A stretch of 36,701 nucleotides of DNA from Lysobacterales bacterium (GTDB lineage: Bacteria; Pseudomonadota; Gammaproteobacteria; Xanthomonadales; SZUA-36). Below are positions 10,980-31,416 of the stretch, one piece after another (position 1 is the stretch's first letter; every line of letters starts with the position of its first letter). The DNA lies in contig JABDPJ010000226.1 in assembly GCA_013042835.1 (NCBI GenBank), positions 1 to 36,701 on the forward strand, read 5' to 3'. A model generated the notes under the pieces. It made no database searches. It saw only the letters and a list, made by a program, of their open reading frames with translations, and had not been told where the DNA came from. The position numbers and the translations under genes are program-made.

Positions 10980-10996
10980 GACAGTGCTTGGATTAC

Positions 10997-11791
10997 CTAG
11001 CTTTTCAGTCGACGGATCAGCCAGCTGTCGACGTAGCGCTCGCTATCGAGCACCAGGCGCTCCTGCATCAGCTGGACCTGGTGCACAAAGAACATCAGCA
11101 CAATGCTGATCACCAGGGCAATGAAGGTCGAGTTGAATGCAACACCGAGGCTTGCGGTCACCCCGGTGATGTCACCCTCAACCGCGCGGTGGGCCTGCCC
11201 CAGCGCGTTGCCAATGCCGCGCACTGTGCCGATAAAACCGACCGACGGAATGGCCCAGGCGATATAGCGGATAATCGACAACTCTGATTCCATCCGTTCA
11301 CCTTCAGATTCACAGACGTCGCGGGCCGCCGTGGAAACGTCCTGGACATTGCGGGTCGCGCCAAAGCGCTCGATTGCGGTCAGCAGCGCCCGTGGCAATA
11401 ACCATCCCTCGGCCTGGCCCGGCAATGCCGCCACCCGTTTTGCGATTTCGCGGGTATCCTCCGGCCCGATGGGTAATCCCCCGGGTAACTGCAGCAGGTC
11501 TTCACCAAGCAGCTTCTGTTGCCGGTACACCTCCCTGCCCTTGTAACCGAGTATGGAGAAAGCCCACAGCATCAGCACGAAGCAGGTCTCCTGCTCAAAA
11601 TCCTTAATAACGACAAAGAAGGAGCGCTGTGGAACGTAGTCGGGATCAGCCTGTACATAAGCAGTTTCCTGCTCGATAAAATCACGCGCCTGGGGGCGTA
11701 CCAGAGTGACGTAGACGGCGTGCACCACGATAAAAGCGATGAGCAGTGAAAAAACATGGAAGACCAGTTCTGTGGGAAAGTTTTTCTTCAT
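10997..11791 (-). CDS. MotA/TolQ/ExbB proton-channel family protein
   Basis: 'IIRYIAWAIPSVGFIGTVRGIGNALGQA' and 'GVTASLGVAFNSTFIALVISIVLMFFVHQ', typical TolQ/ExbB TM2-TM3; N-terminal TM. Confidence 0.85.
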   Translation of the reverse strand: MKKNFPTELVFHVFSLLIAFIVVHAVYVTLVRPQARDFIEQETAYVQADPDYVPQRSFFVVIKDFEQETCFVLMLWAFSILGYKGREVYRQQKLLGEDLLQLPGGLPIGPEDTREIAKRVAALPGQAEGWLLPRALLTAIERFGATRNVQDVSTAARDVCESEGERMESELSIIRYIAWAIPSVGFIGTVRGIGNALGQAHRAVEGDITGVTASLGVAFNSTFIALVISIVLMFFVHQVQLMQERLVLDSERYVDSWLIRRLKS

Positions 11792-11800
11792 TTTTTGCCG

Positions 11801-12091
11801 CTAAATGTCGATGGGGAACGCTACTGCGCTGTCGGCTCCAATTTGCTCGGAGGGTTTGAATTCCTTGACCGTATCAGTCCCGGCCTCACCGGCGTCTTGC
11901 TGTTTTTTGGCGGCATCGGACTTTTCATCCACAGGCGCTTGCTTGACCGCCTCCGGTGGAGCCTGGACCTGCTCAGGGTTTTGATTGTCGGCACCGGTCA
12001 GCACCGGCATCAGGAAGACTGTCAGGAGCAATGCCAGCGCTGAGGGCAGTAACAGGAAAGGCCTGGCGTATTTGGGTTTATTTGTCTGCAT
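11801..12091 (-). CDS. Small single-TM periplasmic/membrane protein
   Basis: MQTNKPKYARPFLLLPSALALLLTVFLMPVL, then a hydrophilic tail; embedded in the cluster and overlaps the end of the upstream gene. Confidence 0.6.
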   Translation of the reverse strand: MQTNKPKYARPFLLLPSALALLLTVFLMPVLTGADNQNPEQVQAPPEAVKQAPVDEKSDAAKKQQDAGEAGTDTVKEFKPSEQIGADSAVAFPIDI

Positions 12092-14486
12092 ATCGTGCAA
12101 TCCTGAAGCCTAGGTTGTCACGCGGCCCGCGACTGTAATCGCGGTAACTTAAGCGCAACTCGGTAATACTGCCATCTCGCCAACTGGATCCGCGTACGAC
12201 ATGGTGGTCGCCAACAGCGGGGCCGGCGGGATCCGTCACCAGCCTGTCTGACTGGCCCGGGTAGACCGCATAAAAATCATTGGTCCATTCAGCCACGTTG
12301 CCGCCAAGGTCATGGAAACCCTCCGGTTGCGCGCTGAAACTGCCCACCGGCGCGGAACTGCGGTAACCATCATTATAGCCCTTCACGATGTTTGCCAAGG
12401 TGTCAGCAATCTGCGCATCTGCAAAATTACCCGTAACGGCCTTGGGCGGGTAACCCTCACCCCACGGATAGCGCGCCGCGCCGCTGCGGCCTGAGACGCG
12501 TGCTGCGTACACCCACTCCGCTTCTGTCGGCAGGCGGTAGCCATTGGTTGCAGACGGCAGCGCCTCCATGCGGCCATCCTTTTCACCATAAGCCGGATTC
12601 AGCTTATCCTGCTCGCTCAGCCAGTTGCAGTATCGCGCGGCATCATCCCAACTGACATTGACCACTGGCTGCCGGTCACCGTCAAGTGACACTCCCTCCG
12701 CGGTACCGGACCGGTGCTTACTGTCAAAGCGCCGGAATTCGGCATTGCTCACCTCCCGGCTTGACAGGTAATACGGCCGGGTGAGTTCGACCAGGCGCTG
12801 GCTTTCGTTGGCGCGCCGGCCGGCTTCGCGCCTCGAGGCCCCCATTTGAAACGTTCCAGACGGTTCCAGCAATCGCATTTCCTGCCCGCCGGCGGTCTTT
12901 AACACGGCCGGCCGCGCCTCTTCCTTGACCTGCACCACGGTGTTCAACGCCACATCAACGTTCTGGCTGGTCGCAGTTCGCGGAGTCACCGTCACAGTTT
13001 GCGGCACGTAACCCGGTTTGCTGAACACCAGTTCATGCGGGCGCGTGGTCAGCCTTAAACGCTGGGTGCCGCTGCCGGAACGTTTACCATCCACCGTCAG
13101 ACTCGCATCTGCTGGTATTGAACTCGCGAACACGATGCCGTATTCCGGGGTCAGGTCCACCTGCAGTTCCTTGCGTTCATCCGGCTCGAGGCTGATGGTC
13201 CGTCTGGCAACGCCGTAACCCGGCTTGTTCAATATAAGTTCATGTGGCGTGCCGGAAGCCAGCGTAACGGCGACCGGCGTAGTGCCATGGAAATTGCCGC
13301 CGATGCTCACGGTGGCGCCTTGTGGCCGCGTCTCCAGGGCGAGCGTGCCATCGTTCGGTTCCAGGATGATTCTGTCCAGCTCGACCGGGGTGCCGGCCAC
13401 GAAACTTGCAAGCATGCGCCGGGATTTGAAGCCGGCAAGAGACAGTTCGATTTCCCGCTGACCCTGGATGATCTCCGTGACCAGCGGCGTTTGGCCCACC
13501 GGCTCGCCATCTATATTGACCTGCGCAGTCTCCGGTTCGCTTGTTATAAAAACCTCTGCCCACGCCGGTTGCAGTGCAAGTTGCAGCGCCTGGAGCTCGC
13601 CAAACCCGGCTATTTCCAGCTCCCGGCTCTCGGCCAGGTAACGATCGGTTTCTATCAACAACTCGTAGGTTCCCCGCTGCAGGGAAATGATGTTGTCGCG
13701 CTCAACCGGCAGCTCTGCATCAGCCACAGAGACCCTGACCGGCACGGATGGATCAACCATGATCTGCAAACGACCCGGCAATTCCTCCAACTCAAAATCG
13801 AAAGCCCGGAAACCGCCGGATGACACTTCAAAGCTTTGCCGCAAAGGCTGGTAACCGGCCAGCTCAGCCTCGACGGTATAGGTGCCCGGAACGACCAGCA
13901 TCCTCGACCCGAACGAAACCGCGGGCGGAAATCCGCTGACGGACTGGTCATCTGGCTCAGGGTTGATATTTATGGCCACCGGCGTGGCGAAGATGACAAA
14001 CACGGCGATCAGCGCCAGCAGGCTAAAAAGCGCGAGCAACAGGTAGCGAAGCCTGCGCCGCTTGACGGCTGGCATCGGGTTTGAATTAACCGGGATTACC
14101 CTGGTCGTCTCATCTTCCTCAGGGTCTGGCGGCGGCTCGGCCGGTGGTTGCAATTCCAGTTCGTCACGGCTGTCCCCGACCTTGATGAATACCTGGTCGC
14201 CCTTGATGTCCCACTTCAGAAGCCAGTCGCCCAGTTGCACCCTGTCACCGGATTTCAGCCAGGCGGAGGTATCGATGAACTCATGGTTGTGGAACAACTC
14301 GACATCCGCGTCAGCCGGCTGCAGATAGGCATGGCCATCGGCAAGGGCAATATGAGCCACGACCGTCCCGGCGGGAAGACCCGGCAGGCTGATGTCCGCT
14401 CCGGCACCGCCGATGGCCAGCGGAAAGTCCGCCGCTTCAACACGCCGGACACCGCTCACAGTGTCGATAAAGAAGACCCGCCTCAT
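12078..14486 (-). CDS. Multidomain membrane protein: FHA-like N-terminus, TM helix, tandem PEGA repeats, C-terminal FGE-sulfatase (SUMF1) fold
   Basis: PEGA-like repeats ('AEVFITSEPETAQVNIDGEPVGQTPLVTEI', 'GTLALETRPQGATVSIGGNFHGTTPVAVTL', 'GIVFASSIPADASLTVDGKRSGSGTQRLRL'); FGE-fold 'MGASRREAGRRANESQRLVELTRPYYLSSREVSNAEFRRF', 'PVVNVSWDDAARYCNWLSEQ', 'YRLPTEAEWVYAAR', 'DLGGNVAEWTNDFY', 'DNLGFRIAR'. Confidence 0.85.
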   Translation of the reverse strand: MRRVFFIDTVSGVRRVEAADFPLAIGGAGADISLPGLPAGTVVAHIALADGHAYLQPADADVELFHNHEFIDTSAWLKSGDRVQLGDWLLKWDIKGDQVFIKVGDSRDELELQPPAEPPPDPEEDETTRVIPVNSNPMPAVKRRRLRYLLLALFSLLALIAVFVIFATPVAININPEPDDQSVSGFPPAVSFGSRMLVVPGTYTVEAELAGYQPLRQSFEVSSGGFRAFDFELEELPGRLQIMVDPSVPVRVSVADAELPVERDNIISLQRGTYELLIETDRYLAESRELEIAGFGELQALQLALQPAWAEVFITSEPETAQVNIDGEPVGQTPLVTEIIQGQREIELSLAGFKSRRMLASFVAGTPVELDRIILEPNDGTLALETRPQGATVSIGGNFHGTTPVAVTLASGTPHELILNKPGYGVARRTISLEPDERKELQVDLTPEYGIVFASSIPADASLTVDGKRSGSGTQRLRLTTRPHELVFSKPGYVPQTVTVTPRTATSQNVDVALNTVVQVKEEARPAVLKTAGGQEMRLLEPSGTFQMGASRREAGRRANESQRLVELTRPYYLSSREVSNAEFRRFDSKHRSGTAEGVSLDGDRQPVVNVSWDDAARYCNWLSEQDKLNPAYGEKDGRMEALPSATNGYRLPTEAEWVYAARVSGRSGAARYPWGEGYPPKAVTGNFADAQIADTLANIVKGYNDGYRSSAPVGSFSAQPEGFHDLGGNVAEWTNDFYAVYPGQSDRLVTDPAGPAVGDHHVVRGSSWRDGSITELRLSYRDYSRGPRDNLGFRIARYADK

Positions 14487-15964
14487 ATCGGTTCCTCACA
14501 GCGGATAACCAGGACCGGCTGGTTCGAGCCGGGTTTGAGCGTAACCGTGCGGCGCACGTCACGGTAACCGGGCCTTGAGCCGATAATCGTGTAAGTGCCC
14601 GGCAGCAACTCCAGTTGCTGACTGGTGAACTGTCCGAGGCGGCCGATATGATAGATCAGAACCTGGGTCAGGCCATCAGATTTCAGCGTGATGTTTAACG
14701 GTATCCGGGCGTCGGCAAGCAGGCGCTTCAGGCGGCTGATCTTATCCGCAAGCAGGGGTTCCGAGACCGGTGCGGCGCCGGCCGCAGCAATTAACTCTTC
14801 TGCATTTAGCCTCGGTTCATCTGCAAACAACCGTTCCGGCCGCTCGAGATAGTGGTCGAATTGCCCGTGCAGGCGCACCCTGTCTTCCGCGAAGGCCTTG
14901 CCCTGGCTGGCAAAACCGGCCTGGGGCACTTTGGCCAGCACCTCCCGGTAGGTAGCGGCCGCCCCGCTCCAGTCTTCCTCGCGCTGCTGGCCAGCCGCCT
15001 TTTCGCGCTGGCCGTCCAGCCACAACCTCTGCCGGGTCTGCGCCAGCTGTTGCCGCGTGTTGCGCACCGCCTCGTCACCGGGCTTGAGGCCAGCAGCCTG
15101 GTTCAATGCCACCTCGGCTGCACTTATCCGCTCCTGATCCAACGCACTGAGTGCACGGCTCATTGCCTCCCGGAATGCGAGCTCCGTGATCTGATCACTG
15201 ACGCTATTCAGCGCTGATTCTGCCGGCCCATAGAATTCATCCAGCGCAAGCGCTTGCTGGAAAGCGTCCCGGGCGCCTGACAGGTCGCCGACGGACAGGG
15301 CCAACTCACCAGCCTCCATCCGGTTCAAAACGTCAGGCCGGGCCGTTGCGCGCTGCAAGCCGGCCAATGCGTCTTCATTGTCCGCTTCAATGGACAGGGC
15401 AAGCTCAAAATATGTCCCGGCTGCGCTGCTGTCACCGGCCTGCAGGGCCTGCCAACCCGAATTCAATGCAATCTGAAGGCGCTGCCCACGCTCAGACTCA
15501 AGCAAAACCAGCAGCGTTTTTGCACCTGACAGTACCTCGGCAGACTCGGCAAACCGGCGTTGTCCGAACAGTTCGTTACCGCTGGCTGAAGCGTCCAGTG
15601 CCCGGCTCCATTCCGGTTCGCCCCAGACCGGTGCATTGGCCAGTTCGAGACGGGCCTGAAGACGGAGAAAATCCTGCAGGGACTGCTCCGCGTCTGCCCG
15701 GGCATTCGCCGCCTGCTGTGCCTGCTGTTGAGGCGATACAGCCGCGACCGCCCCGGCCGCGTCCTGGCCAGCTCCGTCACGATCAGTGGACACCATTTTT
15801 GGCAATACCAGCAAGACGGCCAAACCGAGAGTAATGACAACTGCCAGCGCAGCCCAGATTAGGCCACGTCCACCTGTCCTGTCCGCAACGACCACATCGT
15901 CAGCGCCAGGAGGCCGAGACTCGAAACCGGGTTGACCTTGCTTGGGCGGTTCCATGGGATCCAA
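14483..15964 (-). CDS. Single-TM protein with TPR-like periplasmic repeats and C-terminal PEGA domain
   Basis: TM 'GLIWAALAVVITLGLAVLLVLPK', helical repeat region, C-terminal 'LELLPGTYTIIGSRPGYRDVRRTVTLKPGSNQPVLVIRC'; ATGA overlap with the downstream gene. Confidence 0.75.
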   Translation of the reverse strand: MDPMEPPKQGQPGFESRPPGADDVVVADRTGGRGLIWAALAVVITLGLAVLLVLPKMVSTDRDGAGQDAAGAVAAVSPQQQAQQAANARADAEQSLQDFLRLQARLELANAPVWGEPEWSRALDASASGNELFGQRRFAESAEVLSGAKTLLVLLESERGQRLQIALNSGWQALQAGDSSAAGTYFELALSIEADNEDALAGLQRATARPDVLNRMEAGELALSVGDLSGARDAFQQALALDEFYGPAESALNSVSDQITELAFREAMSRALSALDQERISAAEVALNQAAGLKPGDEAVRNTRQQLAQTRQRLWLDGQREKAAGQQREEDWSGAAATYREVLAKVPQAGFASQGKAFAEDRVRLHGQFDHYLERPERLFADEPRLNAEELIAAAGAAPVSEPLLADKISRLKRLLADARIPLNITLKSDGLTQVLIYHIGRLGQFTSQQLELLPGTYTIIGSRPGYRDVRRTVTLKPGSNQPVLVIRCEEPI

Positions 15965-15968
15965 CAGC

Positions 15969-17165
15969 CTATTCGGCGACGGGTGGCAGACCGGTTTCTG
16001 TTGCGTAAATCTGCCTCATCAGTACTCGCCATTGTTCGTACTGGGCTTCGGCAGAGCCCGTCAATTCAATAGTCTCACCCTCGATCTCGAACACCAGTGG
16101 CCGGGTTTCGGACGAAAACGAAAGGCCCAGTTCCTCGATGGATTCGCGGTGTATGACTGCTTCAGAGCGCTTGTCCACACCCGACTTGATTGCCGCGGCG
16201 CCACCCAGAACCATGACATCGCTCAGTGTATCGAGCGCGGGGTCATAACCGTCACCCGCTGCAGCGACAAAAACTGCGCCGACGATCGACGCTACGCCCA
16301 GCAGGGTCCGGTTCAACGCGGCTTTCTCGAGCGCTCTTTGTTTCTCTGATTCATCACTGCGCGCCTTGCGCCACTCGGTATAGGGCTCCCGCATCTCGCG
16401 ATGGAAGTTATCAAAATGGCCATTCAGCGTATCGATCATCATCAGGTCGCGTTCCTTGATAGCCAGCACACGGCCATACATCGGATCATTCGAACTCGGC
16501 AGGTGAACAATGTCGAATTGACCCTCTTCATTGATGTCCAGGTAGCCCGAGAATGCATCGGGAGCAATGTTCGCAGCAAAGCGCAACTCTTCTATCCTGC
16601 GAATGGCCGTAATATCCTCGGGCGTTAAAGTCCTCAAAAACCTGGCAAGATCGTTGGCGACCGTGTTGTAGAGTGGTTGAAACGCGTCCCCGAAAAGCGG
16701 ATTGGCGCGGTAGAAAGAAGCCTCGACGCCATCGCGGTACTGCCTGGTGAACCATTGTCGGCCGCTTGCATCCCGGGCTGATATTTCAAGATCCAACTGC
16801 TCACCATTGGAGGCGATAATCCCGCCCGAGACCAGCAGTTCACCGCCACCGATGTCCCGTGGCACCACGCGCACTGCGCCCCAGTAGCCGGTTTTCTCCA
16901 TGGTGGCGCGCAATTCTTCCGGCATATAACGGGCCTCTGCCTCGCGGATGTCCATGGACAGGCCATTCGCCTTTTTCTCATTTTTTGGCAAAACGCCGGG
17001 GTCGAACACTTCAATCGATACATTGAGTAAGCGGTTCTCGGGAATTTCCGCCGCAGCCTTGTCAAGCGGCACGGCTTCTTCAATATTTCGACGCGGGCCC
17101 GTGCTGCTGCAGGCGATCAACAGTGATAACGACAGGATCGTCAATAAAAGAAAAAAATGTTTCAT
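15969..17165 (-). CDS. Predicted outer/inner membrane lipoprotein, unknown family
   Basis: Lipobox in MKHFFLLLTILSLSLLIAC|SSTG; remainder not recognised. Confidence 0.7.
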   Translation of the reverse strand: MKHFFLLLTILSLSLLIACSSTGPRRNIEEAVPLDKAAAEIPENRLLNVSIEVFDPGVLPKNEKKANGLSMDIREAEARYMPEELRATMEKTGYWGAVRVVPRDIGGGELLVSGGIIASNGEQLDLEISARDASGRQWFTRQYRDGVEASFYRANPLFGDAFQPLYNTVANDLARFLRTLTPEDITAIRRIEELRFAANIAPDAFSGYLDINEEGQFDIVHLPSSNDPMYGRVLAIKERDLMMIDTLNGHFDNFHREMREPYTEWRKARSDESEKQRALEKAALNRTLLGVASIVGAVFVAAAGDGYDPALDTLSDVMVLGGAAAIKSGVDKRSEAVIHRESIEELGLSFSSETRPLVFEIEGETIELTGSAEAQYEQWRVLMRQIYATETGLPPVAE

Positions 17166-19582: not shown

Positions 19583-20482
19583 TCAGGCTTCCGGTTTGCG
19601 GGCCAGGATCCGCCAGCGCACCGAGCCCGACTCGTTGGGAGTGCCCGGTGCATCCTGGACGGGTTGCCCCTGGCCCGGCGGCGCAAACGTGTCCAGTTTA
19701 AAACCACTGTTTTCGAACAGGCTGCGAATCTCCTGCGCCGTGCGGATCAGGTAGGTCCAGTGAAAACGGCCGTAATCCACGGCCAATTGCCGTGCCAGTC
19801 GCGGCTCGACAGCATGGCTCTGAAACAAGGCTTCTGCCCTGCGCTGGGTGCGGTCCGCCAAAGCCTCCACCTCGGCATCCGAGTACCTGATGATCGGCTG
19901 CCGGTCTTCGGTCCTTGCCCTCTGTGCCGTTAACACGGCACCACCCGGCCGCAGGTTTAACCACCACCTGTCAACCAGCCGCTTGCGCTCGGATTCATTG
20001 AAAAAACACAGGAAAGAATGCGTGCAGATCAGGTCAAACCTCTCAGCAGGCTGGTGGAGCAGGACATTTTCCTTGATGACCTCCACGTCGATTCCAAACC
20101 GCTCTGCGTACCAGCCATTGAGACGTAGCGGGGTCCCGCACAGATCCACCACGGTGACCCGCATATCCTGCAGATATGGCCCGGCAGCGGCCGCGACCCT
20201 CGCCAACAGGGCGTAATCCGCCGCACCTGAAATCAGTATACGCCTCGTACCCGCTTCTATCAGGCGGGACAGCGCGGGCAGGAAAAAGTCGTCATCCGAG
20301 AGTATCGAGTGGAATACACCCAGGTAACGCAACATCTGCCAGGAACCGTGGTACCAGCCGCATCCCGGCTGTTCCCCGTCACCCTGGTCACATTCATGCC
20401 GGGACCACGCCAGGGCGAGCGGCGCACTGTCCTGCAGGGGTTCCCTGGCCACCATTGGTGGGGTGATTTCAGGCCCGTGCAT
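19583..20482 (-). CDS. Class I SAM-dependent methyltransferase
   Basis: 'TRRILISGAADYALLARVAAAAGPYLQDMRVTVVDLCGTPLRLNGWYAERFGIDVEVIKENVL....FDLICTHSFLCFF...RWWLNLRPGGAVL', Rossmann-like MTase pattern. Confidence 0.75.
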   Translation of the reverse strand: MHGPEITPPMVAREPLQDSAPLALAWSRHECDQGDGEQPGCGWYHGSWQMLRYLGVFHSILSDDDFFLPALSRLIEAGTRRILISGAADYALLARVAAAAGPYLQDMRVTVVDLCGTPLRLNGWYAERFGIDVEVIKENVLLHQPAERFDLICTHSFLCFFNESERKRLVDRWWLNLRPGGAVLTAQRARTEDRQPIIRYSDAEVEALADRTQRRAEALFQSHAVEPRLARQLAVDYGRFHWTYLIRTAQEIRSLFENSGFKLDTFAPPGQGQPVQDAPGTPNESGSVRWRILARKPEA

Positions 20483-22748
20483 CTTGCTTCAGCGCGGACT
20501 GAGTGGCCACAAAACGTTGGTGCAAAGTCTGGAATTCCTTGCGGCTGGAAGGCAGTACCACGAGGTCCGAAGCGTCCGCCATATCAAGAATTCTCTCGAT
20601 GGCCTTACCGGCATGGGGTACCACGTCGATCGCGGTTTCCGCCACTCCCGCGGCCATCAGTGCCGCCTGCAAAATCCCAGGTACCTCCTGCGGTGCCCTG
20701 CCGCGGGTGTTGGGATATGACCGGCAGACATAGTGATCGAATTTACCCGCTGCGACCCTGGCCATCTCGGCAATGGTTCCGTCAGTCCGGTCGCCGGCGC
20801 AGGCGATCAACAGCAGGCGCCGGCCCTCTACGTCCAGGCCACTGGTGAACTCCGCCAGTCGCGCCAGTCCGTCGGGGTTATGGGCAAAATCCATTACCGC
20901 GCTGTATGGCAGGTCATGGTAAAGATTCAGTCGCCCGGGGGTATGCTCGAAACCCATCCTGAAGGACTCCATGGCAGTGCACAGGTGAGTTGTGGAAACA
21001 CCGAGCAGATAACCCGCCATCATCGCCGCAAGCGCATTCTCAAGGTTGAATCGGGCGGCGCCGCCAAAGGTGCAGGGCATGGCTGAAACGGCCAGCAATA
21101 CCTGCCTCTGGCCGCCGTTGTAAAGAACCACGTGGTCCTCGCCGTCGTGCTGTTCGACCACGCAGAAAAGGTCCTGCCCGGTGCCATGTTCAGCCAGCTC
21201 ATCCCTGTTCCTGGTCGACGAATACAGGCCTGTCCTGGATGCCGTCATGAATGGAATCATCGACAGGCAATGCGGGTCATCGGCATTTAACACGGCACCG
21301 TCCTGCGCCCTTTCCAGCAGGCTGCGTTTGATTTCAACCATTTCCTCGATGGTCTCAATTTCCCCTTCTGCGAGGTGCTCCTCGGTGACATTCAGGCAGA
21401 TGGCAACATTGCAATGTTGGAAAGCAAACCCGCGTATGGCCATGCCCCGGTGGTGAGCTTCAAGTACGGCGGCATCCACCAGCTTGCTTCCCAGTACCCT
21501 GGCGTGGCCGATAAAAGCGCTCGCGTCACCATGTGAGACGGGCTTGTTATCAAGAAATATACCATCCGTGTTAACCAGCCCCGAGCGGTAGCCTGCTGAC
21601 TGCAAAATGCAGTTCAACATGTGGGTGGTCGTGGTCTTGCCATTGGTCCCTGTTACCGCAACCACCGGAATCTGAGCGCGCGCGGCGTCAGGAAAGAGGC
21701 CTTCGACGAGGTCTCCCGCGACGGCATCGAGCAACCCCGGTTCCCCGTCGCATGGACTGAGAAGTTCATATAAATCCGGGGCAATCTCGAAATCGACCAC
21801 GGCCGCGTCCGCCTGCGCCATCGGCAGGCTGATATCAGTTGCCCGCAGCGTGACGACCAGGGGTGGAAATGCCAGCTTTCTGCTGATAGTGCGTACACAT
21901 TCAATGAACTGCTCGTGAACGTTTTCGGCCAGTTGCCTGCTGCTGCCGGCAGCGTCTGCCAGGGCTGTTACCCTGCCATTGACAACCAGCAGATGGAACA
22001 GGCTGGAAGCCCCGTTTTCCCGCACCTCATCCTGGAGCAGTGGAAACCCCGTTTCCCTGATGAATGCGGCACGTTGATCAGCGTTTCTGAGCAGTGCTTT
22101 CAACTGATCGTCAGCCCTGTCGAGATAGAATGTTCCGTCCAGGATCCTGGTACCTGTGCCGTGGCCAAGACTGAGCAGGCCATTCCGGCGCACCCGGAAC
22201 GCGAAACTCATCTTGCCCGTCAATGGTTCGCGTTCAAGCTGCATGCAGGGAATGTTTCGTTGCCGTGCCGCCCTGATTATGGCTGCGGTTTCGAAAGGCA
22301 GAGCACGTTCCCTGGCAAATCCGCAAAACACGCGATATTGCTGAGCCGGGTTGTGCATGTTTCCCGTGAAAATTCCGACCGCTATTTTAACCGCCGCCAT
22401 GCCGACTTCGGAGTGCTCATGCTCCACGAGGGCGATGCATCGCTTCTTTTCCGAATCACAGGACACGTCAACATAGTCCACCCGGTGGCCATTCTTACGC
22501 TGTAACAAAAGCGCTGTTTGCGCCAGCAGGGAAGCGTACCATTCCATCCGCTGTTCAGGCAGGGGCAACAGTGGAAAGGCCTCCCCCTCAGCCAGGATGC
22601 CGGCGCCAAGCAGTTTCCGCCTGATATCTTCAGGCCGTCCGGGAAATCCGGAACCCGGGTCGTCGGCAAAATCCAGCCGAACTTCCACCACGCGCTTATC
22701 GGCGCGTCTGCTGGGACCAAAAAAGGGAAAAAACAGGATTCGGGGCAT
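20469..22748 (-). CDS. Cyanophycin-synthetase-like Mur ligase with strongly reduced ATP-grasp region
   Basis: P-loop 'VVAVTGTNGKTTTTHM', 'CLNVTEEHLAEGEIETIEEMVEIKRSLLE', 'AVLNADDP', 'PGRLNLYHDLPYSAVMDFAHNPDGLARL' as in CphA Mur domains; 'LLVVNGRVTALAD' as in the CphA ATP-grasp. ORF extends to 22766 with an alternative start. Confidence 0.8.
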   Translation of the reverse strand: MPRILFFPFFGPSRRADKRVVEVRLDFADDPGSGFPGRPEDIRRKLLGAGILAEGEAFPLLPLPEQRMEWYASLLAQTALLLQRKNGHRVDYVDVSCDSEKKRCIALVEHEHSEVGMAAVKIAVGIFTGNMHNPAQQYRVFCGFARERALPFETAAIIRAARQRNIPCMQLEREPLTGKMSFAFRVRRNGLLSLGHGTGTRILDGTFYLDRADDQLKALLRNADQRAAFIRETGFPLLQDEVRENGASSLFHLLVVNGRVTALADAAGSSRQLAENVHEQFIECVRTISRKLAFPPLVVTLRATDISLPMAQADAAVVDFEIAPDLYELLSPCDGEPGLLDAVAGDLVEGLFPDAARAQIPVVAVTGTNGKTTTTHMLNCILQSAGYRSGLVNTDGIFLDNKPVSHGDASAFIGHARVLGSKLVDAAVLEAHHRGMAIRGFAFQHCNVAICLNVTEEHLAEGEIETIEEMVEIKRSLLERAQDGAVLNADDPHCLSMIPFMTASRTGLYSSTRNRDELAEHGTGQDLFCVVEQHDGEDHVVLYNGGQRQVLLAVSAMPCTFGGAARFNLENALAAMMAGYLLGVSTTHLCTAMESFRMGFEHTPGRLNLYHDLPYSAVMDFAHNPDGLARLAEFTSGLDVEGRRLLLIACAGDRTDGTIAEMARVAAGKFDHYVCRSYPNTRGRAPQEVPGILQAALMAAGVAETAIDVVPHAGKAIERILDMADASDLVVLPSSRKEFQTLHQRFVATQSALKQDARA

Positions 22749-22859: not shown

Positions 22860-23777
22860 TCAGGTGACCGCGGCGGTGACGGGACTGTCCTTCGCCGGAA
22901 ATACGGTAGCCATACCGTCCAGGTAGCGCCATTGTGCGTCGATATGGGCATTCAATGCATCGGGGTCACCCCAGATCTGCCTGAAACGGCGCTGCTGCTC
23001 GATATAAGAATCCACGGCCATATTGTCGGGCCGCTGGTTGATCCGGTAACGGCAGCCATCAAATATTTCATAGAGTGGAAACAGGCCGCTACGCACGGCG
23101 ATTTCAACCAACTCGGTGCTCTGATCAGGCTCCGATTTCCAACCGGTCGGACACGGCGACAGCATCAGCAGGAAACGAAAACCCTTGATCGATCTTGCAT
23201 ACCTGATCTTGCGCAGGAAATCCTCGCGGTGACTGATAGACAGGGTTGCGGCATAAGGTACCCTGTGGGCGGCCATAATGGCCATGATGTCCTTCTTGCG
23301 CTCACCTTTGCCCGCAGGTGTGGTGGCGGTTACAGCACCGATCGGAGTCGCACCACTGCGCTGACCGCCGGTATTGCCATAAATCTCGTTGTCGTAGCAG
23401 ATATAGATGATATCTTCATTGCGCTCCGCGGCGGCTGACAAGGTCGCCAGGCCAATATCGTAGGTGCCGCCATCTCCTGCCCAGCAGATCACGGGATTGT
23501 CTATATCATTCATCTTCGCGACCGCGCTGATACCGGTTGCGACGGCCGGCGAACTGGCAAACGTAGTGGCCGTGGTCGGGACACCGTAACCGCTGGTCGG
23601 GAATGCCCCGGCGGTGACGATTCCGCAGCATGACGGGATGACCAGCACCGGCTGTTCGTCGCCCAGCGCCTCGTCCAGCCACTGCAGGCCGATCGACATG
23701 CCACATCCGGCGCAATTGGTATTGCCCGGTCTTAACAGGTGGTTTTCATAAGGTTTAGAGGGTGTGGTCGCAGTCAT
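22860..23777 (-). CDS. porB: 2-oxoacid:ferredoxin oxidoreductase beta subunit (TPP-binding, POR type)
   Basis: 'NTNCAGCGMSIGLQWL', TPP motif 'CWAGDGGTYDIGLATLSAAAERNEDIIYICYDNEIYGNTGGQRSGATP'. Confidence 0.9.
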   Translation of the reverse strand: MTATTPSKPYENHLLRPGNTNCAGCGMSIGLQWLDEALGDEQPVLVIPSCCGIVTAGAFPTSGYGVPTTATTFASSPAVATGISAVAKMNDIDNPVICWAGDGGTYDIGLATLSAAAERNEDIIYICYDNEIYGNTGGQRSGATPIGAVTATTPAGKGERKKDIMAIMAAHRVPYAATLSISHREDFLRKIRYARSIKGFRFLLMLSPCPTGWKSEPDQSTELVEIAVRSGLFPLYEIFDGCRYRINQRPDNMAVDSYIEQQRRFRQIWGDPDALNAHIDAQWRYLDGMATVFPAKDSPVTAAVT

Positions 23778-24946
23778 GCTGTATCATCCTTCCATTCCGG
23801 ATCAGAGGCCGTCGTTCGCTCGCTCATGTCATCAATAATCGCATTGATATTTTCCGGCGTTACGTCGCCGCCGCCCAGGCCAACCAGGTAATCCTGCAAC
23901 AACATATCCGGATCATGGCTGAGCGTGGCAGCGACTTCCTGCCAGAAAATTCCACCGGAACCCGGAGAATGGTTGCGGTCAAGCACCGCTACGCGTTTGG
24001 CCGGACCAATAGCTTCCAGCAATTCCTTGCGCGGAAACGGCCTGAATAACTTGGACCGTATCATGCCTATTTTTTCGCCTTTTTTGCGCCGCTCGATGAC
24101 CACGTTGCGCAGTGTGCGCGCCATCGTGTTGCAGGCAATGAAGATGGTTTCGGCGTCCTCCGTCTCAAAGGCTTCGAGCGCCCCTGCCGGTCGCCGGCCG
24201 AAGATTTTCTCAAACTCGTCACGCGCCTCTTCCAGCACCGTCATGGCATTCTCCATCGAGTGCTGTATCTCCCAGCGATGGTGCTCTGTTTCGCTGGGCC
24301 AGGTCATGCCGCCGAAGGTCGATGGATGGTCGTGTTTGAGCTTGTGCGGAATAACGCACTCCGGCAGAAAGGCATCGACCTGTTCCTGGGTTGGCTCATC
24401 GACTACCATCTGCGTATGTGAAGTGACAAACCCGTCCATGGCGACGATGACCGGCAACATCACCCGTTTGTCTTCCGCAACGCGGAAGGCCATCAATACG
24501 GTATCCTGCAAATCCTGGTGGCTATCGCAATAGAACTGCATCCAGGCCGCGTCGCGCATCATCAGGCTGTCGCCCTGGTCTACCCAGATGTTCCAGGGCG
24601 GGCCCAGCGTGCGATTGACAGCGATCATGACGGTAGGCAGCCGGTAGTAACCGGCCGCAAAGATATTTTCGGTCATGTACGCCAGCCCGTTGGAAGAACT
24701 GGCGGTAAAGGTCCGCGCCCCGGACAAGGCCGCACCAATACAGACACCCATCGCACTATGCTCCGATTCAACCAGCACAATCCGGCCTTTGCTGAACGGG
24801 AAACCGGAAAGGTATTCGATAATCTCGGTTTGCGGCGTAATCGGATAAGCGCCGGCGCAACAACCCCTGGCGTTCCGATTGGCCTCGCCCGCGAGTGCAA
24901 GGGCATGGCCTGCAGCATGGTTACCGGTGGCAAGTGATCTGCTCAT
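23774..24946 (-). CDS. porA: 2-oxoacid:ferredoxin oxidoreductase alpha subunit (POR type)
   Basis: 'GAYPITPQTEIIEYLS', 'ESEHSAMGVCIGAALSGARTFTASSSNGLAYM', 'NRTLGPPWNIWVDQGDSLMMRD'. Confidence 0.9.
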   Translation of the reverse strand: MSRSLATGNHAAGHALALAGEANRNARGCCAGAYPITPQTEIIEYLSGFPFSKGRIVLVESEHSAMGVCIGAALSGARTFTASSSNGLAYMTENIFAAGYYRLPTVMIAVNRTLGPPWNIWVDQGDSLMMRDAAWMQFYCDSHQDLQDTVLMAFRVAEDKRVMLPVIVAMDGFVTSHTQMVVDEPTQEQVDAFLPECVIPHKLKHDHPSTFGGMTWPSETEHHRWEIQHSMENAMTVLEEARDEFEKIFGRRPAGALEAFETEDAETIFIACNTMARTLRNVVIERRKKGEKIGMIRSKLFRPFPRKELLEAIGPAKRVAVLDRNHSPGSGGIFWQEVAATLSHDPDMLLQDYLVGLGGGDVTPENINAIIDDMSERTTASDPEWKDDTA

Positions 24947-24964
24947 GAAAAGCCTCCTTCGGGC

Positions 24965-27202
24965 TTATAGGTTCGTCATGTATATGGCGCCGCGCGGGCA
25001 GGCGGTCATGCAGACGCCGCAACCCTTACAATACTCGAGGTCAAAGTAATAACCCTCTTCTTCACTGCCTTGCCTGAGAATGCCCTCGGGGCAGTACTCA
25101 AGACAGCGGTCACAGGAATTACAGACACCACAGCTTAGACAACGCAGTGCTTCACCGACCGCCCCCGTGCCATCGGGCCCGGCCTGGAAGCCCAGGTGAA
25201 CCTCATCGAAGCAGCGCCGCCTTTCAGCCGGGCTGAGCGTATTGACCTTCTCGGGTGGCAAGTGCTCAAAACGCTGGAACTTGATCGCTTCAGCGCTGGC
25301 AACGGGTTCTTCCGGTGGCGGAAACAGGTCTTCGCCCGACAGCGTGCGATGGATATGCCTGGCGGCCCTGACGCCGCAACCGATCGCGGCTGAGACCGTA
25401 CCGGCGTTGGTCGCAAAATCACCGCCCATGAAAAACGGTGCGCCACTTAAACCAAGCAGTGCTTCGCCTTCCTTGATCACGGATCCCTCGGGCAGAATGG
25501 AAATGTCATGGGACTGCCCCAGTGCCAGGATCACGAGGTCGCAACGCAAGTTGAAACGGGCTTCCGGACTGGTATCGGCGACCGGCCTCGGTCTGCCACT
25601 GGCATCCGGCGGGCCAAGCACCATACCCTGGCAGGTCAACAGGGGCCCCTCATCAGAGTCGGTCAGGCTTACCGGTGCAACGAGTTCATCAAGGATGATT
25701 CCCTCTTCCAGCGCCTGTTCAATCTCTTCATGGATTGCCGGCATCTCGCTGCGGGTCCGGCGGTAGACTACACGCACCTCGCTGGCACCGATCCGCAGCG
25801 CGGAACGGGCGGCGTCCATGGCAGTATTGCCTCCGCCGATGACGATGACGCGCTGGCCATCCAGGCGTTGGTTGCCCTGGCGTACCTGCTCGAGAAAATG
25901 CAATCCCTGTACCGGCTCTGCCGATGCACTATTACCGAGGTCCAGGTCACTCACATTCTGCAATCCGGTGGCCACAAAGACCGCCTGGTATTCGCGGCTC
26001 AGGCGCAACATGTCTTCGCGCCTCAGCTGGCAACCCGTATGCGGTGCAATATCGTATTGCAGGATGTAGTCAATTTCTTCATCCAGCACGTCGCGCGGCA
26101 GGCGGTAGGCCGGAATACCGGTGCGCATGACACCACCCAGTTCGTCACCTGCCTCGTATAGCGATACCGGATAACCCAGTTTTGCCAGCTGGTAAGCCGT
26201 GCTGAGCCCTGCCGGTCCGGAACCCACCACCGCGACTTTCTCTTGCCTCGATGAGCGGTTGGGTGCAGTCCGCACGCCAAGTTCAGCTGCGGCACGTTCA
26301 ATTTCCCTGACGTTTACCGACGTGTCGTATTCCGCCCGGTTGCAGGTTTCCATGCACGGCGCGGGACAGACGCGGCCGCAGATGGCAGGCAGCGGCGATG
26401 TTTCGAGTATGATCCCGAGTGCCTTGTCATAGTTTTCCTTGCCGACTGCCGCCACGAACCCCTGCACGTCATTACCGGCGGGACAGACGTGGTTGCAGGG
26501 CGGCGTCAACTGGCGCCGCTCAGGTTTTCGCGTGGCCCAGCTGCCGGTCTTGATTTTTGGCATTCCACCGACGTCGTCATCGAACAAATCGGCAACCCTG
26601 GGCTTGCTGGTTACCTCAGGCGGCTTGACAATTTCGCCCGGAATTTTTTGGGAACGCACCATTTTGTAGGCTTCCCGGGCACAGGTTTTGTTGGTTCCGG
26701 CAAAGTTCAAATGCTCGAGGCCGGCCAGCAAATCCATCAGTGACAGATCCAGTACACGCGCCACTGCGCCCGCCATCGTGGTGTTGACGATCGGCACGGT
26801 GCGGGTACCAAGTCCGTTGGAAACGGCGATACTGGTTGCATCGATCGTCGCCACTTCGCGGCCGGGAAAAAGCTCCTTGTAATCCGTATTGTCATCAGGG
26901 GTATTGACAATAATGGAGCCGCCGTTCTTCAGGGTGGCGTCCATACCCGGCACGATCAGTGTGCGATCCAGCACAATGAGATAATCGGGATTCTGAACCT
27001 GGTTGTGGTTGGTTATTTCGTTATCATCTACGCGGGCAAAGGCCTGAATCGGTGCACCTGAACGCTCAGCAGCATAGACACCGAAGGCCTGCACATACTT
27101 GCCCTTGAGAAAATAAGCCGAGGCAATAATCTTGGCGAGCGTAACGCCGCCCTGCCCTCCACGCCCACAAATTGTAATTTCCATCATCGTGGCAGTTTCC
27201 AT
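24965..27202 (-). CDS. Fusion: 2-oxoacid:ferredoxin oxidoreductase gamma domain + GltD-like FAD/NAD(P)H oxidoreductase + 2[4Fe-4S] ferredoxin (delta) domain
   Basis: Gamma 'MEITICGRGGQGGVTLAKIIASAYFLKGKYVQAFGVYAAERSGAPIQAFARV'; GltD-like 'CNHVCPAGNDVQGFV...ICGRVCPAPCMETCNR', 'KVAVVGSGPAGLSTAYQLAKLGYPVSLYE', 'RVIVIGGGNTAMDAARSALRIGA'; C-terminal 'CLEYCPEGIL...CKGCGVCMTACPRGAI'. Confidence 0.9.
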   Translation of the reverse strand: METATMMEITICGRGGQGGVTLAKIIASAYFLKGKYVQAFGVYAAERSGAPIQAFARVDDNEITNHNQVQNPDYLIVLDRTLIVPGMDATLKNGGSIIVNTPDDNTDYKELFPGREVATIDATSIAVSNGLGTRTVPIVNTTMAGAVARVLDLSLMDLLAGLEHLNFAGTNKTCAREAYKMVRSQKIPGEIVKPPEVTSKPRVADLFDDDVGGMPKIKTGSWATRKPERRQLTPPCNHVCPAGNDVQGFVAAVGKENYDKALGIILETSPLPAICGRVCPAPCMETCNRAEYDTSVNVREIERAAAELGVRTAPNRSSRQEKVAVVGSGPAGLSTAYQLAKLGYPVSLYEAGDELGGVMRTGIPAYRLPRDVLDEEIDYILQYDIAPHTGCQLRREDMLRLSREYQAVFVATGLQNVSDLDLGNSASAEPVQGLHFLEQVRQGNQRLDGQRVIVIGGGNTAMDAARSALRIGASEVRVVYRRTRSEMPAIHEEIEQALEEGIILDELVAPVSLTDSDEGPLLTCQGMVLGPPDASGRPRPVADTSPEARFNLRCDLVILALGQSHDISILPEGSVIKEGEALLGLSGAPFFMGGDFATNAGTVSAAIGCGVRAARHIHRTLSGEDLFPPPEEPVASAEAIKFQRFEHLPPEKVNTLSPAERRRCFDEVHLGFQAGPDGTGAVGEALRCLSCGVCNSCDRCLEYCPEGILRQGSEEEGYYFDLEYCKGCGVCMTACPRGAIYMTNL

Positions 27203-27433
27203 CCTGTTTTCTATGTTCGAATTAGAATGTAACCAGAAAAACTCCGGGCTCGTAACGCTAAAAATCACCCTCAGTGGAACGATACACCCACCGGCTTAGA
27301 CAGGCCTTGACGTTAATCAAGTACAAAGCGTTTAAGCTTGAACAGCCAATCGCCGTTTATGCGTCAAAGACCCGTCAGCACAGGTATCCGCGCCTCGGCT
27401 TTAAGCCAGGCGCGGGTGGTTCCGGGCGATTAG

Positions 27434-27943
27434 TTACAGGGCCTGGCCTGCTCGCTCCAGCATTAATTTTCGCGTGTACGGAATCAGCCCGCCTGCGTCG
27501 ATAATCGCCTGGCGCGCTGCGGGCAATGGTTGAATGTCGAACGATTCACCGGAAGCCAGGTTCCAGACCTTGTTTTCCCTCACCTCGAGTTCATCTCCTT
27601 CGGCAGCATTGATGTCCGGACAGATGATCATTTGCAGGCCCACGTTAATCGAGTTTTGCAGGAATATGCGTGCAAAATTCCGCGCCACGACAGTGATGTC
27701 ATAGCCCTTGATGCAGGAGGCGGCCTGCTCGCGTGAGGAACCGCAACCAAAGTTGTCCCCGGCGACGATGAAGCTGCCCGCCGGCACGCCGCCTTCATTG
27801 AGCAACTGGTTGAACGCCTTGTCATCGGCGAATGCAAACTGCGGTGTCTCAGTTGGCAATACCGTTGCCATGAATCGGCCCGGGTAGATGATATCGGTCG
27901 AAATATCGTTGGCCAGTTTAAGTACGACTTTGCCCTTGGACAT
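27434..27943 (-). CDS. Aconitase-family hydro-lyase small subunit (LeuD-like)
   Basis: 'LANDISTDIIYPGRFMATVLP', 'FIVAGDNFGCGSSREQAASCIKGYDITVVARNFARIFLQNSINVGL'. Confidence 0.9.
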   Translation of the reverse strand: MSKGKVVLKLANDISTDIIYPGRFMATVLPTETPQFAFADDKAFNQLLNEGGVPAGSFIVAGDNFGCGSSREQAASCIKGYDITVVARNFARIFLQNSINVGLQMIICPDINAAEGDELEVRENKVWNLASGESFDIQPLPAARQAIIDAGGLIPYTRKLMLERAGQAL

Positions 27944-27944
27944 A

Positions 27945-29234
27945 TCAGTTCACCTCCCTCGGATCGGTAATAACGCCGCTCAGGGCGCTGGCCGCCGCAA
28001 CTGCCGGTGAGCAAAGGAATACCTCTGCACCGGGATTGCCCATGCGGCCCTTGAAATTGCGATTGGTGGTGGCCAGGGCGACTTCATCGTCGCCAAGGGC
28101 ACCCTGGTGAATGCCGAGACAGGGCCCGCAACCGGGGTTGCAAACCACCGCACCAGCCTTGATCAGGTCGCCGAGATATCCCGCATCCATCGCATCGGTG
28201 TAGATGCGCCATGAGGCAGGAAATACCAGCAGGCGCGTACCTTCTGCCACCTGCTTGCCCCTGAGGGTGCGGGCCACGATTTCGATGTCATCCAGGCGGC
28301 CGTTGGTGCAGGAGCCGACAACGATCTGGTTGATCTTCTTACCCTTGACACCATCGATCGGCTTGACGTTGTCGACCGTGTGCGGACAGGCAATTTGCGG
28401 GCCAAGCTGCGCGGCATCAATCTCAACCACGCGGTCATACTCAGCATCGGTATCCGCAGCCAGCAGCTCGAGCTCGCCTTCAACTCCCGCCTCGTCACGC
28501 AGGTAACGCACCGTTTCCTCATCCGGTGGCACAACGCCGGCAGTCGCACCTGCCTCAACCGACATGTTGCAGAGCACCAGGCGGCCGGAGGTCGGCAGGT
28601 TGCTAATCGTCTCACCATGGAATTCAATAACCTTGAAGTTCGCTCCTTCGGCGCTGAGGGTGCCAATCACGTGCAGTATCAGATCCTTGGCGTAAACACC
28701 GTCGGGCAACTGCCCGTTGACCACGACCTTGATCGTGCCGGGCACCTCCACGTTCAGAATACTACCGAGCGCCCAGACTGCGGCCATCTCCGTCGCGCCG
28801 ATACCGAATGCAAAGGCGCCAAGGGCACCGTGCGTCGTTGTATGGCTGTCAGTGCCCACCAGTATCTGGCCGGGGCGGACATAGCCATTTTCGGGTAATA
28901 TCTGGTGGCAGATTCCACCCACGTCACCGCGCACATCGTGAAACTTGGAAATACCCTGCTGTTGGACAAAGCCGCGGGTTTTCTTGTGGTTGGTCGCGGT
29001 TTTTGACGATTCCGCCGGCACGCGATGGTCAAAGATGATCGCGATCCGGTCCGGGTCCCAGACGCTCGGCTCCCGGCTGGTGCCCCGGTAGATTTCATTG
29101 AACTGGTTGATGACCAGTGCCGCATTCTCGTGTGACATTGCGAGATGCACCGGCAACTCGAGAATATCACCGGTCGCAACCGAGTCCTTGTCACAGGCAC
29201 GGGCCAGCAATTTCTGTACGTACGTCATAGCCAT
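27945..29234 (-). CDS. Aconitase-family hydro-lyase large subunit (LeuC/homoaconitase-like)
   Basis: 'LVGTDSHTTTHGALGAFAFGIGATEMA', Fe-S ligands 'VVGSCTNGRLDDI' and 'AVVCNPGCGPCLGIHQG'; AAGGAGA upstream of ATG 29234. Confidence 0.92.
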   Translation of the reverse strand: MAMTYVQKLLARACDKDSVATGDILELPVHLAMSHENAALVINQFNEIYRGTSREPSVWDPDRIAIIFDHRVPAESSKTATNHKKTRGFVQQQGISKFHDVRGDVGGICHQILPENGYVRPGQILVGTDSHTTTHGALGAFAFGIGATEMAAVWALGSILNVEVPGTIKVVVNGQLPDGVYAKDLILHVIGTLSAEGANFKVIEFHGETISNLPTSGRLVLCNMSVEAGATAGVVPPDEETVRYLRDEAGVEGELELLAADTDAEYDRVVEIDAAQLGPQIACPHTVDNVKPIDGVKGKKINQIVVGSCTNGRLDDIEIVARTLRGKQVAEGTRLLVFPASWRIYTDAMDAGYLGDLIKAGAVVCNPGCGPCLGIHQGALGDDEVALATTNRNFKGRMGNPGAEVFLCSPAVAAASALSGVITDPREVN

Positions 29235-29260
29235 AACAATCTCCTTTTCAGGTGCCTGTC

Positions 29261-29298
29261 AAATTACGTTTCCAAATTACGTTTCCAAATTACGTTTC
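29261..29298. repeat. 13-bp tandem repeat (AAATTACGTTTCC), about 2.9 copies
   Basis: 29261 AAATTACGTTTCC / 29274 AAATTACGTTTCC / 29287 AAATTACGTTTC, read directly. Confidence 0.9.
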
Positions 29299-30496
29299 AA
29301 ATAACATTTTTCGCCTTCAATTCGGCCACTTCATCCGCACTGACGCCAATATCCGTCAGGATCTGTGCAGTATGTTCCGAAAGCCTTGGCGGCGGAGAAG
29401 TGATATCCCCGGGCGTTTGTTCAAATTTCGCGGTCAGGTTAAACAGCGGAATCGTCCCGACGCCCTCGACTTCCACATCTTTGAGGGTTTCGCGGTGTTT
29501 GACCTGCGGTTGGTTCAGTGCATCCTCCAGGCTCAGGATCGCGCCGCTCGGCACACCGTTGCTGTTCAACAGGTCGACCCACTCCATGGTGCCGCGCGCG
29601 GCGAGTTTAGCCTCCAGCAGGGGGGTCAGCGCCTTGCGGTTCTGCTTGCGGATATCCCGTTTCTGGAAACGCTCATCGGTTTTAAGCTCTTCCAGTCCGA
29701 GGACGTCACAGACCGCCTCCCATTGCTCCTGTTTGTTGGCCGCAATATTGATATGACCGTCACCGGTGCGGAACACACCGGACGGCGCCGCGGTGAAATT
29801 ATCGTTGCCCATGGGTACCGGTTGCTTATTTGCAATCAGAAGGTTGGCCGCCACCCAGCCCATCAGGGGCATGATGGAGTCGAGCATGGCGACGTCGATA
29901 AATTGACCTTCGCCGCTGCGCTCGCGGTGGTAAAGCGCCGCCATGATCGCGAAGGCGGCATTCAGGCCACCTACCGTGTCACAGACCGGAAAGCCGGTGC
30001 GCAGCGGGTTAAGCCTGTCATCACCGTTGACAGACATTTCCCCGCTGAGACCCTGGATAATCTGGTCATAAGCCGGTTTTTTGGCATCGGGCCCGGTCTG
30101 GCCAAAACCGGAAATTGCGCAGTAGATCAGGCCCGGGTTGATGTCCTTAAGGACCGCGTAGCTCAGGCCGAGGCGCTCCATCACACCGGGCCGGAAATTC
30201 TCAACCAGCACGTCGGCGTCCTTGACCAGTTTTCTGAAAATCTCCTTGCCCTCGGGAGTCTTGGTATTGAGCGTAATCGACTTCTTATTGGCGTTCTGCG
30301 CAAGAAAACTCGTCCCCATGAGTTGCTCATTCAACTCGGTCATGGTTCCCAGTTTTCGCGCCAGGTCGCCACTGCCGGGGCGCTCGACCTTGATGACCTC
30401 GGCACCCATGAGCGCCAGGTGTAATGTCGCGAAAGGTCCAGCCAGCACGTTCGTCAGGTCGAGGACCCGGACACCTTGCATAATTTGCTTGCTCAT
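29297..30496 (-). CDS. CaiB/BaiF (class III) CoA-transferase
   Basis: 'GVRVLDLTNVLAGPFATLHLALMGAEVIKVERPGSGDLAR', 'NKKSITLNTKTPEGKEIFRKLVKDADVLVENFRPGVMERLGL', 'YCAISGFGQTGP'. Confidence 0.93.
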   Translation of the reverse strand: MSKQIMQGVRVLDLTNVLAGPFATLHLALMGAEVIKVERPGSGDLARKLGTMTELNEQLMGTSFLAQNANKKSITLNTKTPEGKEIFRKLVKDADVLVENFRPGVMERLGLSYAVLKDINPGLIYCAISGFGQTGPDAKKPAYDQIIQGLSGEMSVNGDDRLNPLRTGFPVCDTVGGLNAAFAIMAALYHRERSGEGQFIDVAMLDSIMPLMGWVAANLLIANKQPVPMGNDNFTAAPSGVFRTGDGHINIAANKQEQWEAVCDVLGLEELKTDERFQKRDIRKQNRKALTPLLEAKLAARGTMEWVDLLNSNGVPSGAILSLEDALNQPQVKHRETLKDVEVEGVGTIPLFNLTAKFEQTPGDITSPPPRLSEHTAQILTDIGVSADEVAELKAKNVI

Positions 30497-31404
30497 GCTG
30501 CCTCCTTGCTACGCAGTGCGCCGGTTTTGTACACGCATCCCGGCATTTCACGCGCGAAGAAACCCGCGACATCACCCGCCACGCTGATCAGGCGGTCCAC
30601 GTCTATATCTTCCCGCAGACCCTGCAACTGCAAAGCGTTGACAAAGTCCTCGGTAGCGACATTTCCCGCTGCGACCTTGGTAAACGGACAACCGCCGAGA
30701 CCGGCAAAAGAGGTTTCGAAAGATGTGACGCCAACCCGCAATGCGGCCATGATATTAGCCATGCCAAGGCCATAGGTGTTATGGAAATGACTGGTGCACT
30801 CAACCTGTGGATCGAGTGCAAGCACGGCGGAAAACAGCCGCTCAACCTGCGCCGGATGGGCGTGGCCGGCCGTATCGGCCAGGCTGATGTTGTACAGGCC
30901 CGCCTCCACGTAGGCCGACGCCATTTCCAGCACGCGTTCCTCGGCGATCGGGCCTTCAAACCCGCAACCAAAAGCGGATTGCACTGAAACCTGTACCTTC
31001 TTGCCGGCCTGCAGGACCTCCTGACCGGCGCCAATGATCCGCCGGGTGGCATCCATGCTGGGCATGCGGGTATTTTTCAGGCTGTGGGTCTCACTGGCGG
31101 AAGCGCCGAGGCAAAACATCTCCACCCCGCACTCCATGCCGCGCTCCACACCCCTTTCATTCAGGGCGAGTCCGGCCAGGGTGACCTCAGACCGCTTGTC
31201 GGCGACCAGTCGTTTGACCAGTTCGTCGGTGTCGGCCATTTGCGGCACCTTCACCGGGTGGACGAAGGAACCCACCTGCACAATATCAACGCCGGATTCC
31301 ATCGTGCGGCGAATCCAGTCCTCCTTGGTATCCGTCGGAACGACCTGCCGCTCCATCTGCAGCCCGTCGCGCGGGCCCACTTCGTGGACGACGATATGTT
31401 TCAT
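30493..31404 (-). CDS. HMG-CoA lyase-family aldol-type acyl-CoA lyase
   Basis: 'HEVGPRDGLQMERQVV', 'SFVHPVKVPQMADTDEL', 'HFHNTYGLGMANIMAAL', 'GLGGCPFTKVAAGNVATEDFV'; ATGA overlap with the CoA-transferase gene. Confidence 0.9.
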   Translation of the reverse strand: MKHIVVHEVGPRDGLQMERQVVPTDTKEDWIRRTMESGVDIVQVGSFVHPVKVPQMADTDELVKRLVADKRSEVTLAGLALNERGVERGMECGVEMFCLGASASETHSLKNTRMPSMDATRRIIGAGQEVLQAGKKVQVSVQSAFGCGFEGPIAEERVLEMASAYVEAGLYNISLADTAGHAHPAQVERLFSAVLALDPQVECTSHFHNTYGLGMANIMAALRVGVTSFETSFAGLGGCPFTKVAAGNVATEDFVNALQLQGLREDIDVDRLISVAGDVAGFFAREMPGCVYKTGALRSKEAA

Positions 31405-31416
31405 AGTGATCTCCGT

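Follow-up and report, generated by a model that had tools for sequence, protein, structure and literature searches.

A cyanophycin synthetase-derived protein with an eroded ATP-grasp domain and an intact Mur ligase domain, a candidate stand-alone amide ligase

Introduction

What does a cyanophycin synthetase become when its ATP-grasp domain has largely been deleted and its Mur ligase domain has been kept? The question is raised by a gene in a stretch of 36,701 nucleotides (the window) from a Lysobacterales bacterium. A first-pass annotation of the window proposed that one of the two ligations of cyanophycin synthesis had been lost here, leaving a stand-alone amide ligase or a peptide-tailoring enzyme. 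We find that the ATP-grasp site has indeed been deleted, that the Mur site residues are intact and that this shape is family-wide and under purifying selection; the activity that was proposed along with it stays a prediction.

Results

The reading frame runs from an ATG at 22748 to a stop at 20469 on the minus strand and encodes 759 aa (Table 1); an alternative TTG start 18 bases upstream of the ATG would give 765 aa. Two domains of the protein score above Pfam cut-offs, the Mur middle domain (PF08245, 71.3 bits) and the C-terminal domain (PF02875, 45.7 bits), and nothing else does so. The best NCBIfam match, cyanophycin synthetase TIGR02068, lies far below its cut-off (366.9 bits against 850). 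Overall, CphA models score the protein at 370.5 bits versus 121.8 bits for MurE models, and a family profile aligns from position 1 to 754 of 761 to solved CphA1 chains (E 2.3e-165) with a gap in the G (ATP-grasp) domain only. We therefore describe the protein as an N domain, a stub, a Mur core and a Mur lid, with a reduced G domain.

The jump from FIRETGFPLLQDEVRENGASS to LFHLLVVNGRVTALADAAG in the ATP-grasp body, from which the first-pass annotation had argued, is present in the frame exactly as described, as are the Mur motifs NVTEEHL, NADDP and DFAHNPD. The early position of the Mur P-loop was also borne out: with the ATG start it begins at residue 366, and with the TTG start at 372, versus 502 in a same-order CphA1, a shift of 136 residues from the ATG-based position. 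Beyond this, the protein has features that the annotation had not recorded, namely a second deletion that removes the omega/lid part of the G domain, loss of the N-domain metallo-site HxxEH associated with primer cutting, an insertion before the GHG...DGT stub and altered substrate pockets in the M domain. The G-domain metal ligands have changed from E.N to D.E. In an alignment of 23 family members, 23 CphA1 and 4 complete CphA' sequences, the window protein keeps 15 of the 57 CphA1-invariant positions in the N domain and 32 of 159 in the G domain, with 87 of 171 kept in the M domain. The Cx19HxxEH primer-cutting motif occurs in 83% of CphA1 proteins, and the G-domain mutation H267A inactivates that domain in SuCphA1 (PMC9262961); by alignment, H267 would be the His of the NHGRG loop.

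Table 1. Positions, within the window, of the ligase-like gene, its domains and residues, and the overlapping gene
Feature	Position	Strand	Basis or remark
CphA-derived CDS, eroded ATP-grasp and intact Mur ligase domain, 759 aa	20469..22748	-	ORF and domain searches
N domain, CphA-type, aa 1-164, without the C/HxxEH primer-cutting site	22257..22748	-	CphA1 alignment
Short family-specific insertion and conserved NGLL.LGHG...DGT stub, aa 165-206	22131..22256	-	
G domain (ATP-grasp) remnant, aa 207-353	21690..22130	-	
Junction of deletion 1, ~aa 237-250; CphA1 ATP-binding core (Lys and NHGRG loop) gone	21999..22040	-	
Junction of deletion 2, ~aa 266-275; omega/lid part (CphA1 ~335-408) gone	21924..21953	-	
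Mur P-loop TGTNGKTTT, aa 366-374	21627..21653	-	
Gly-His, aa 414-415, family-specific, aligned with MurE TTP (putative acceptor site)	21504..21509	-	Alignment
E430, equivalent of TeCphA1 Mg ligand Glu558	21459..21461	-	
E457-H458, equivalent of SuCphA1 D585-H586; Asp replaced by Glu	21375..21380	-	
K474, aligned to MurE Lys; invariant in members, CphA1 and CphA'	21327..21329	-	
R606...H623 (PGRLN...DFAHNP), equivalents of TeCphA1 R731 and H748, Mur lid	20880..20933	-	
Putative amine-donor loop, aa 676-690, RSYPNTRGRAPQEVP, aligned with MurE DNPR; CphA1 Asp-Asp gone	20679..20723	-	
Gene weakly resembling SAM methyltransferases, 299 aa	19583..20482	-	Overlaps CDS end by 14 bases

A search for relatives sharing the deletion, which the first-pass annotation had put forward as a check, returned members in 10 of 39 genomes of the bacterium's own family (one of them, G005, via a C-terminal fragment only), with several copies in some, and in 12 of the 43 genomes examined from a second family in this order. 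The source genome itself, whose assembly is 89% complete, carries a second family copy (contig C239, locus L013) and a CphA' fragment; CphA1 was not found in this assembly. Within the order the N-terminal profile separates members (E <= ~2e-32) from CphA1 (E ~1e-12 to 3e-20), and beyond it, among 369 genomes of the class and 398 of the phylum, this profile returned solely full-length CphA1-like frames. Identity among the 23 members is ~30-45%. In a tree of the M and C domains the members form one clade (SH-aLRT 98 and 100), separate from CphA1 and CphA', the trees being quick ones with long branches on some rows. Six pairs of orthologues, drawn entirely from the second family, gave dN/dS values of 0.11-0.23, the M and C domains being conserved at least as well as the rest of the protein; the window gene against L058 gave 0.21, near saturation, its nearest homologue standing at 47%. 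We found no account of such a family in the open-access literature searched, and the window gene apparently belongs to a family new to description.

Erosion of the G domain is graded across these proteins. Measured from DGT (in CphA1, from the aligned AT) to the P-loop, the spacing is 286-288 aa in CphA1, 200-221 aa in most second-family members and in L054, 139-162 aa in window-type members and 56-58 aa in L048 and L049; the gap of 158-159 aa is also found in the nearest homologues of the window protein (L058, L059 and L013). Since L048 is an intact ORF of 659 aa and has the full window-type L059 as its nearest sister, the G remnant is dispensable. L049 has a frameshift close to the end of its ORF. 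Separately, a 960-aa CphA relative (L126, G062 C38) has retained the omega part without the ATP-binding loop, suggesting that loss of catalysis preceded loss of the G domain itself; this protein is possibly an intermediate stage of the erosion.

In the Mur half the picture is one of retention at the catalytic centre. The ATP and Mg2+ roles of the M-domain residues have been assigned in CphA1 (PMC9427784), and the window protein retains all of those compared (K371, T372, T394, E430, R606 and H623). The role of the E457-H458 pair is taken from D585-H586 of SuCphA1 (PMC9262961). At 457 the window protein has Glu in place of the catalytic Asp of CphA1, a change shared by 5 of the 23 members, and H458 and K474 are invariant. 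Throughout the family the Mur ATP/Mg residues and the invariant His and Lys are conserved (23/23), with Thr/Ser swaps at two positions.

The segments expected to contact the substrates have changed. In MurE, the TTP motif serves the acceptor and the DNPR motif the amine donor. CphA1 and CphA' retain GPxxA at the segment aligned with TTP, whereas the family members have (G/S)H; the His is found in 23/23 members, and Ala stands at this position in 23/23 CphA1 and 22/22 CphA' sequences. Likewise, the Asp-Asp of the donor loop is present in every CphA1 and in none of the 23 members, and the loop varies between paralogues (YPNTRGR, YRNLAGR, FSKLFGR and others). With both segments changed in all members, the family would use another acceptor and other amines than CphA1; the pocket roles of the Gly-His and of the 676-690 loop are predicted by alignment with MurE.

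The hosts were also compared for cyanophycin genes. Four genomes with a member (G087, in one contig and 99% complete; G109, 97%; G099, 99%; G121, 94%) gave, at the threshold applied, no CphA match besides the member itself, and no cyanophycinase match in a search that did match in four of the other genomes; the product of the member is thus probably not cyanophycin. Of all the observations, this pattern of gene content speaks most strongly against a cyanophycin function across the whole family. Within the own family, members occur mostly in genomes that also carry canonical cphA1 together with cphA', with cyanophycinase in three tested, so that an accessory role in cyanophycin metabolism may apply there.

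The window gene starts 111 bases after porB. The methyltransferase-like gene that overlaps its other end is a possible partner of the ligase; it has no homologue in the nine other same-genus genomes, and its only decent homologue, in G022 (C25), lies at a contig end. A methyltransferase-ligase module was set aside on these grounds. In the stretches read, the por genes of four same-genus genomes (G002, G007, G008 and G009) are accompanied by neither ligase nor methyltransferase. The pair therefore looks like a lineage-specific accessory addition, and a functional tie to the upstream por/leuCD operon was likewise rejected. No operon partner conserved across the family was found, neighbours being common to orthologous loci only. 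Methyltransferase-like neighbours coupled on the same strand fall into three mutually unmatched sets (window; L095/L098; L100/L103), and other such neighbours are a P450 (L054), GNAT acetyltransferases (L055, L101) and a 3-beta-HSD-like enzyme (L096). These tailoring-type neighbours of several members, anecdotal as they are, give a weak hint of small-molecule chemistry. A phage or defence system found no support.

The second own-genome copy and its counterparts (L013, L050 and L097, at G000 C239, G009 C282 and G099 C15) are syntenic, sharing a PBP1b-like protein, a helicase and a TsaD-like gene as neighbours, with a LysE-type exporter adjoining L013 and L050. G009 belongs to the same genus as the source genome and G099 to another family. 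Elsewhere in the window, an operon-like run at 22860-32538 contains a 2-oxoacid:acceptor oxidoreductase and genes resembling LeuCD, class III CoA-transferase, HMG-CoA lyase and isopropylmalate dehydrogenase; the gamma subunit of the oxidoreductase has a GltD-like NAD(P)-binding protein and a ferredoxin domain as fusion partners. Annotated partly by eye, this run may be a citramalate/2-oxobutyrate module. A minus-strand cluster at 8890-17165, with von Willebrand-type, MotA/TolQ-like and PEGA/sulfatase-modifying-factor-like proteins recognised by eye, is possibly an envelope complex.

Discussion

On balance, we read the window protein as a descendant of cyanophycin synthetase that probably acts on its own as an ATP-dependent amide (isopeptide) ligase of the Mur type. 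ATP and Mg2+ would be bound by the M domain, which would phosphorylate a carboxylate of the acceptor. The acceptor would sit in a pocket that bears the family-specific Gly-His, with the retained N domain on one side and the Mur core on the other; a second substrate, positioned by the mobile C-terminal lid, would then attack with its amino group to form the amide. With the ATP-grasp site that adds each Asp gone, chain lengthening as in CphA1 would not be expected, and one residue would be added per acceptor. Catalysis, substrates and single addition are all predictions. Cyanophycin is an unlikely acceptor and Arg an unlikely amine, and the choice of amine probably varies among paralogues along with their donor loops; most likely, the family joins some other pair of building blocks than those of cyanophycin. 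A broader reading, which we put forward tentatively and at somewhat under even chances, is that of an order-restricted, multicopy and fast-diversifying family of single-bond amide ligases, each paralogue joining its own amine and acceptor into some small molecule, which arose by stepwise reduction of a bifunctional storage-polymer synthetase.

The alternative with the best claim to consideration, although we judge it unlikely, is an accessory cyanophycin enzyme working alongside CphA1, adding an alternative side chain (Lys or ornithine) or making beta-Asp-X primers while the N domain holds the chain. CphA ancestry and the retained N domain are in keeping with such a role, as is the presence of own-family members in genomes with cphA1, cphA' and, where tested, cyanophycinase, and a Legionella relative without a G domain lies next to cyanophycinase and isoaspartyl peptidase genes. 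Against it stand the four hosts in which neither CphA1 nor cyanophycinase was detected and the absence of linkage to the cphA1 locus; furthermore, the M-domain acceptor and donor segments are changed in all members, whereas those of the Legionella protein stay CphA1-like. The loss of two of the three ancestral sites and the Asp-to-Glu change at 457 would fit a catalytically dead scaffold or regulator with a Mur fold. Plastid PAP11/MurE-like proteins, which are Mur folds within RNA polymerase complexes, are weak structural relatives of the window protein. A scaffold need not, however, keep the P-loop Lys, metal Glu, His, Lys, Arg and lid His that are invariant in 23 members, and we regard this possibility as improbable.

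A peptidoglycan ligase of the MurE type has a very low probability: MurE models do match the M domain, but far less well than CphA models, the N domain is CphA-like and not a UDP-MurNAc domain, DNPR is absent, and the genome has a separate MurE-like gene (C214, locus L004). Hardly any weight falls on a cyanophycin synthetase pseudogene decaying in one strain, the case that the first-pass annotation had named as damaging to its own reading. The eroded G domain and the frameshift of L049 might be read in that way, but intact ORFs of the same shape in two families, the dN/dS values and the single clade speak against it; a shape common to the family and kept by purifying selection is not that of a broken gene, and an assembly artefact is ruled out on the same grounds by the shared gap.

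The protein also differs from the systems it resembles. CphA1 (PDB 7LG5, 7LGM and 7WAC; TIGR02068) is homologous over the full length of the N and M domains and shares the Mur catalytic residues, but the window protein lacks the ATP-grasp site and HxxEH, has (G/S)H in place of GPxxA and is without the donor Asp-Asp. As a working G domain is a defining feature of CphA1, we do not class the window protein as a cyanophycin synthetase; most likely it acts as the Mur half of such an enzyme would. CphA', a protein of ~580 aa encoded beside cphA1, also has a Mur domain without an ATP-grasp domain. It differs in forming a separate clade, in its short, unrelated-looking N-terminus, in keeping GPxxA and in always adjoining cphA1 where seen. 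Cyanophycin was undetectable with the cphA homologues of Ralstonia eutropha (PMC8560796). MurE and other Mur ligases share the M-domain P-loop and the DH..K and R...H arrangement, but have a UDP-MurNAc domain where the window protein has a CphA-type N domain, and the window protein lacks both DNPR and TTP. In CphA2 the Mur site is inactive. This cyanobacterial protein is likewise a single-site CphA descendant (PMC9262961, PMC10206079), and a mirror image of the present case: its ATP-grasp site joins beta-Asp-Arg, whereas the window protein retains the Mur site instead.

Relatives with a missing or eroded G domain, named 'Mur ligase family' proteins, also occur on plasmids of Deinococcus deserti (L160:5320-7494, 724 aa), Deinococcus taeanensis (L159:5053-7569, 838 aa) and Legionella adelaidensis (L161:5776-9420, plasmid NZ_LR134428.1:54195-57839, 622 aa). 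The CphA-type N and M domains are present as in the window protein, but none of the three belongs to the window clade, and each has retained the CphA1-like TGPxSA; with CphA1-like M pockets outside the clade, G-domain loss has probably occurred more than once. The G domain is eroded in the two Deinococcus proteins. The Legionella relative has no ATP-grasp domain, its HxxEH N domain and Mur domain being intact, and its gene neighbours point to a cyanophycin-linked function.

If our reading holds, these proteins would be the mirror image of CphA2, with the Mur half kept and some hosts seemingly without cyanophycin. The graded series would then be a natural experiment in turning a two-site polymerase into a one-bond ligase, and the remodelled donor loops would mark candidate amide ligases with new specificities. 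More generally, 'cyanophycin synthetase' matches that fall under the family cut-off should not be taken as evidence of cyanophycin.
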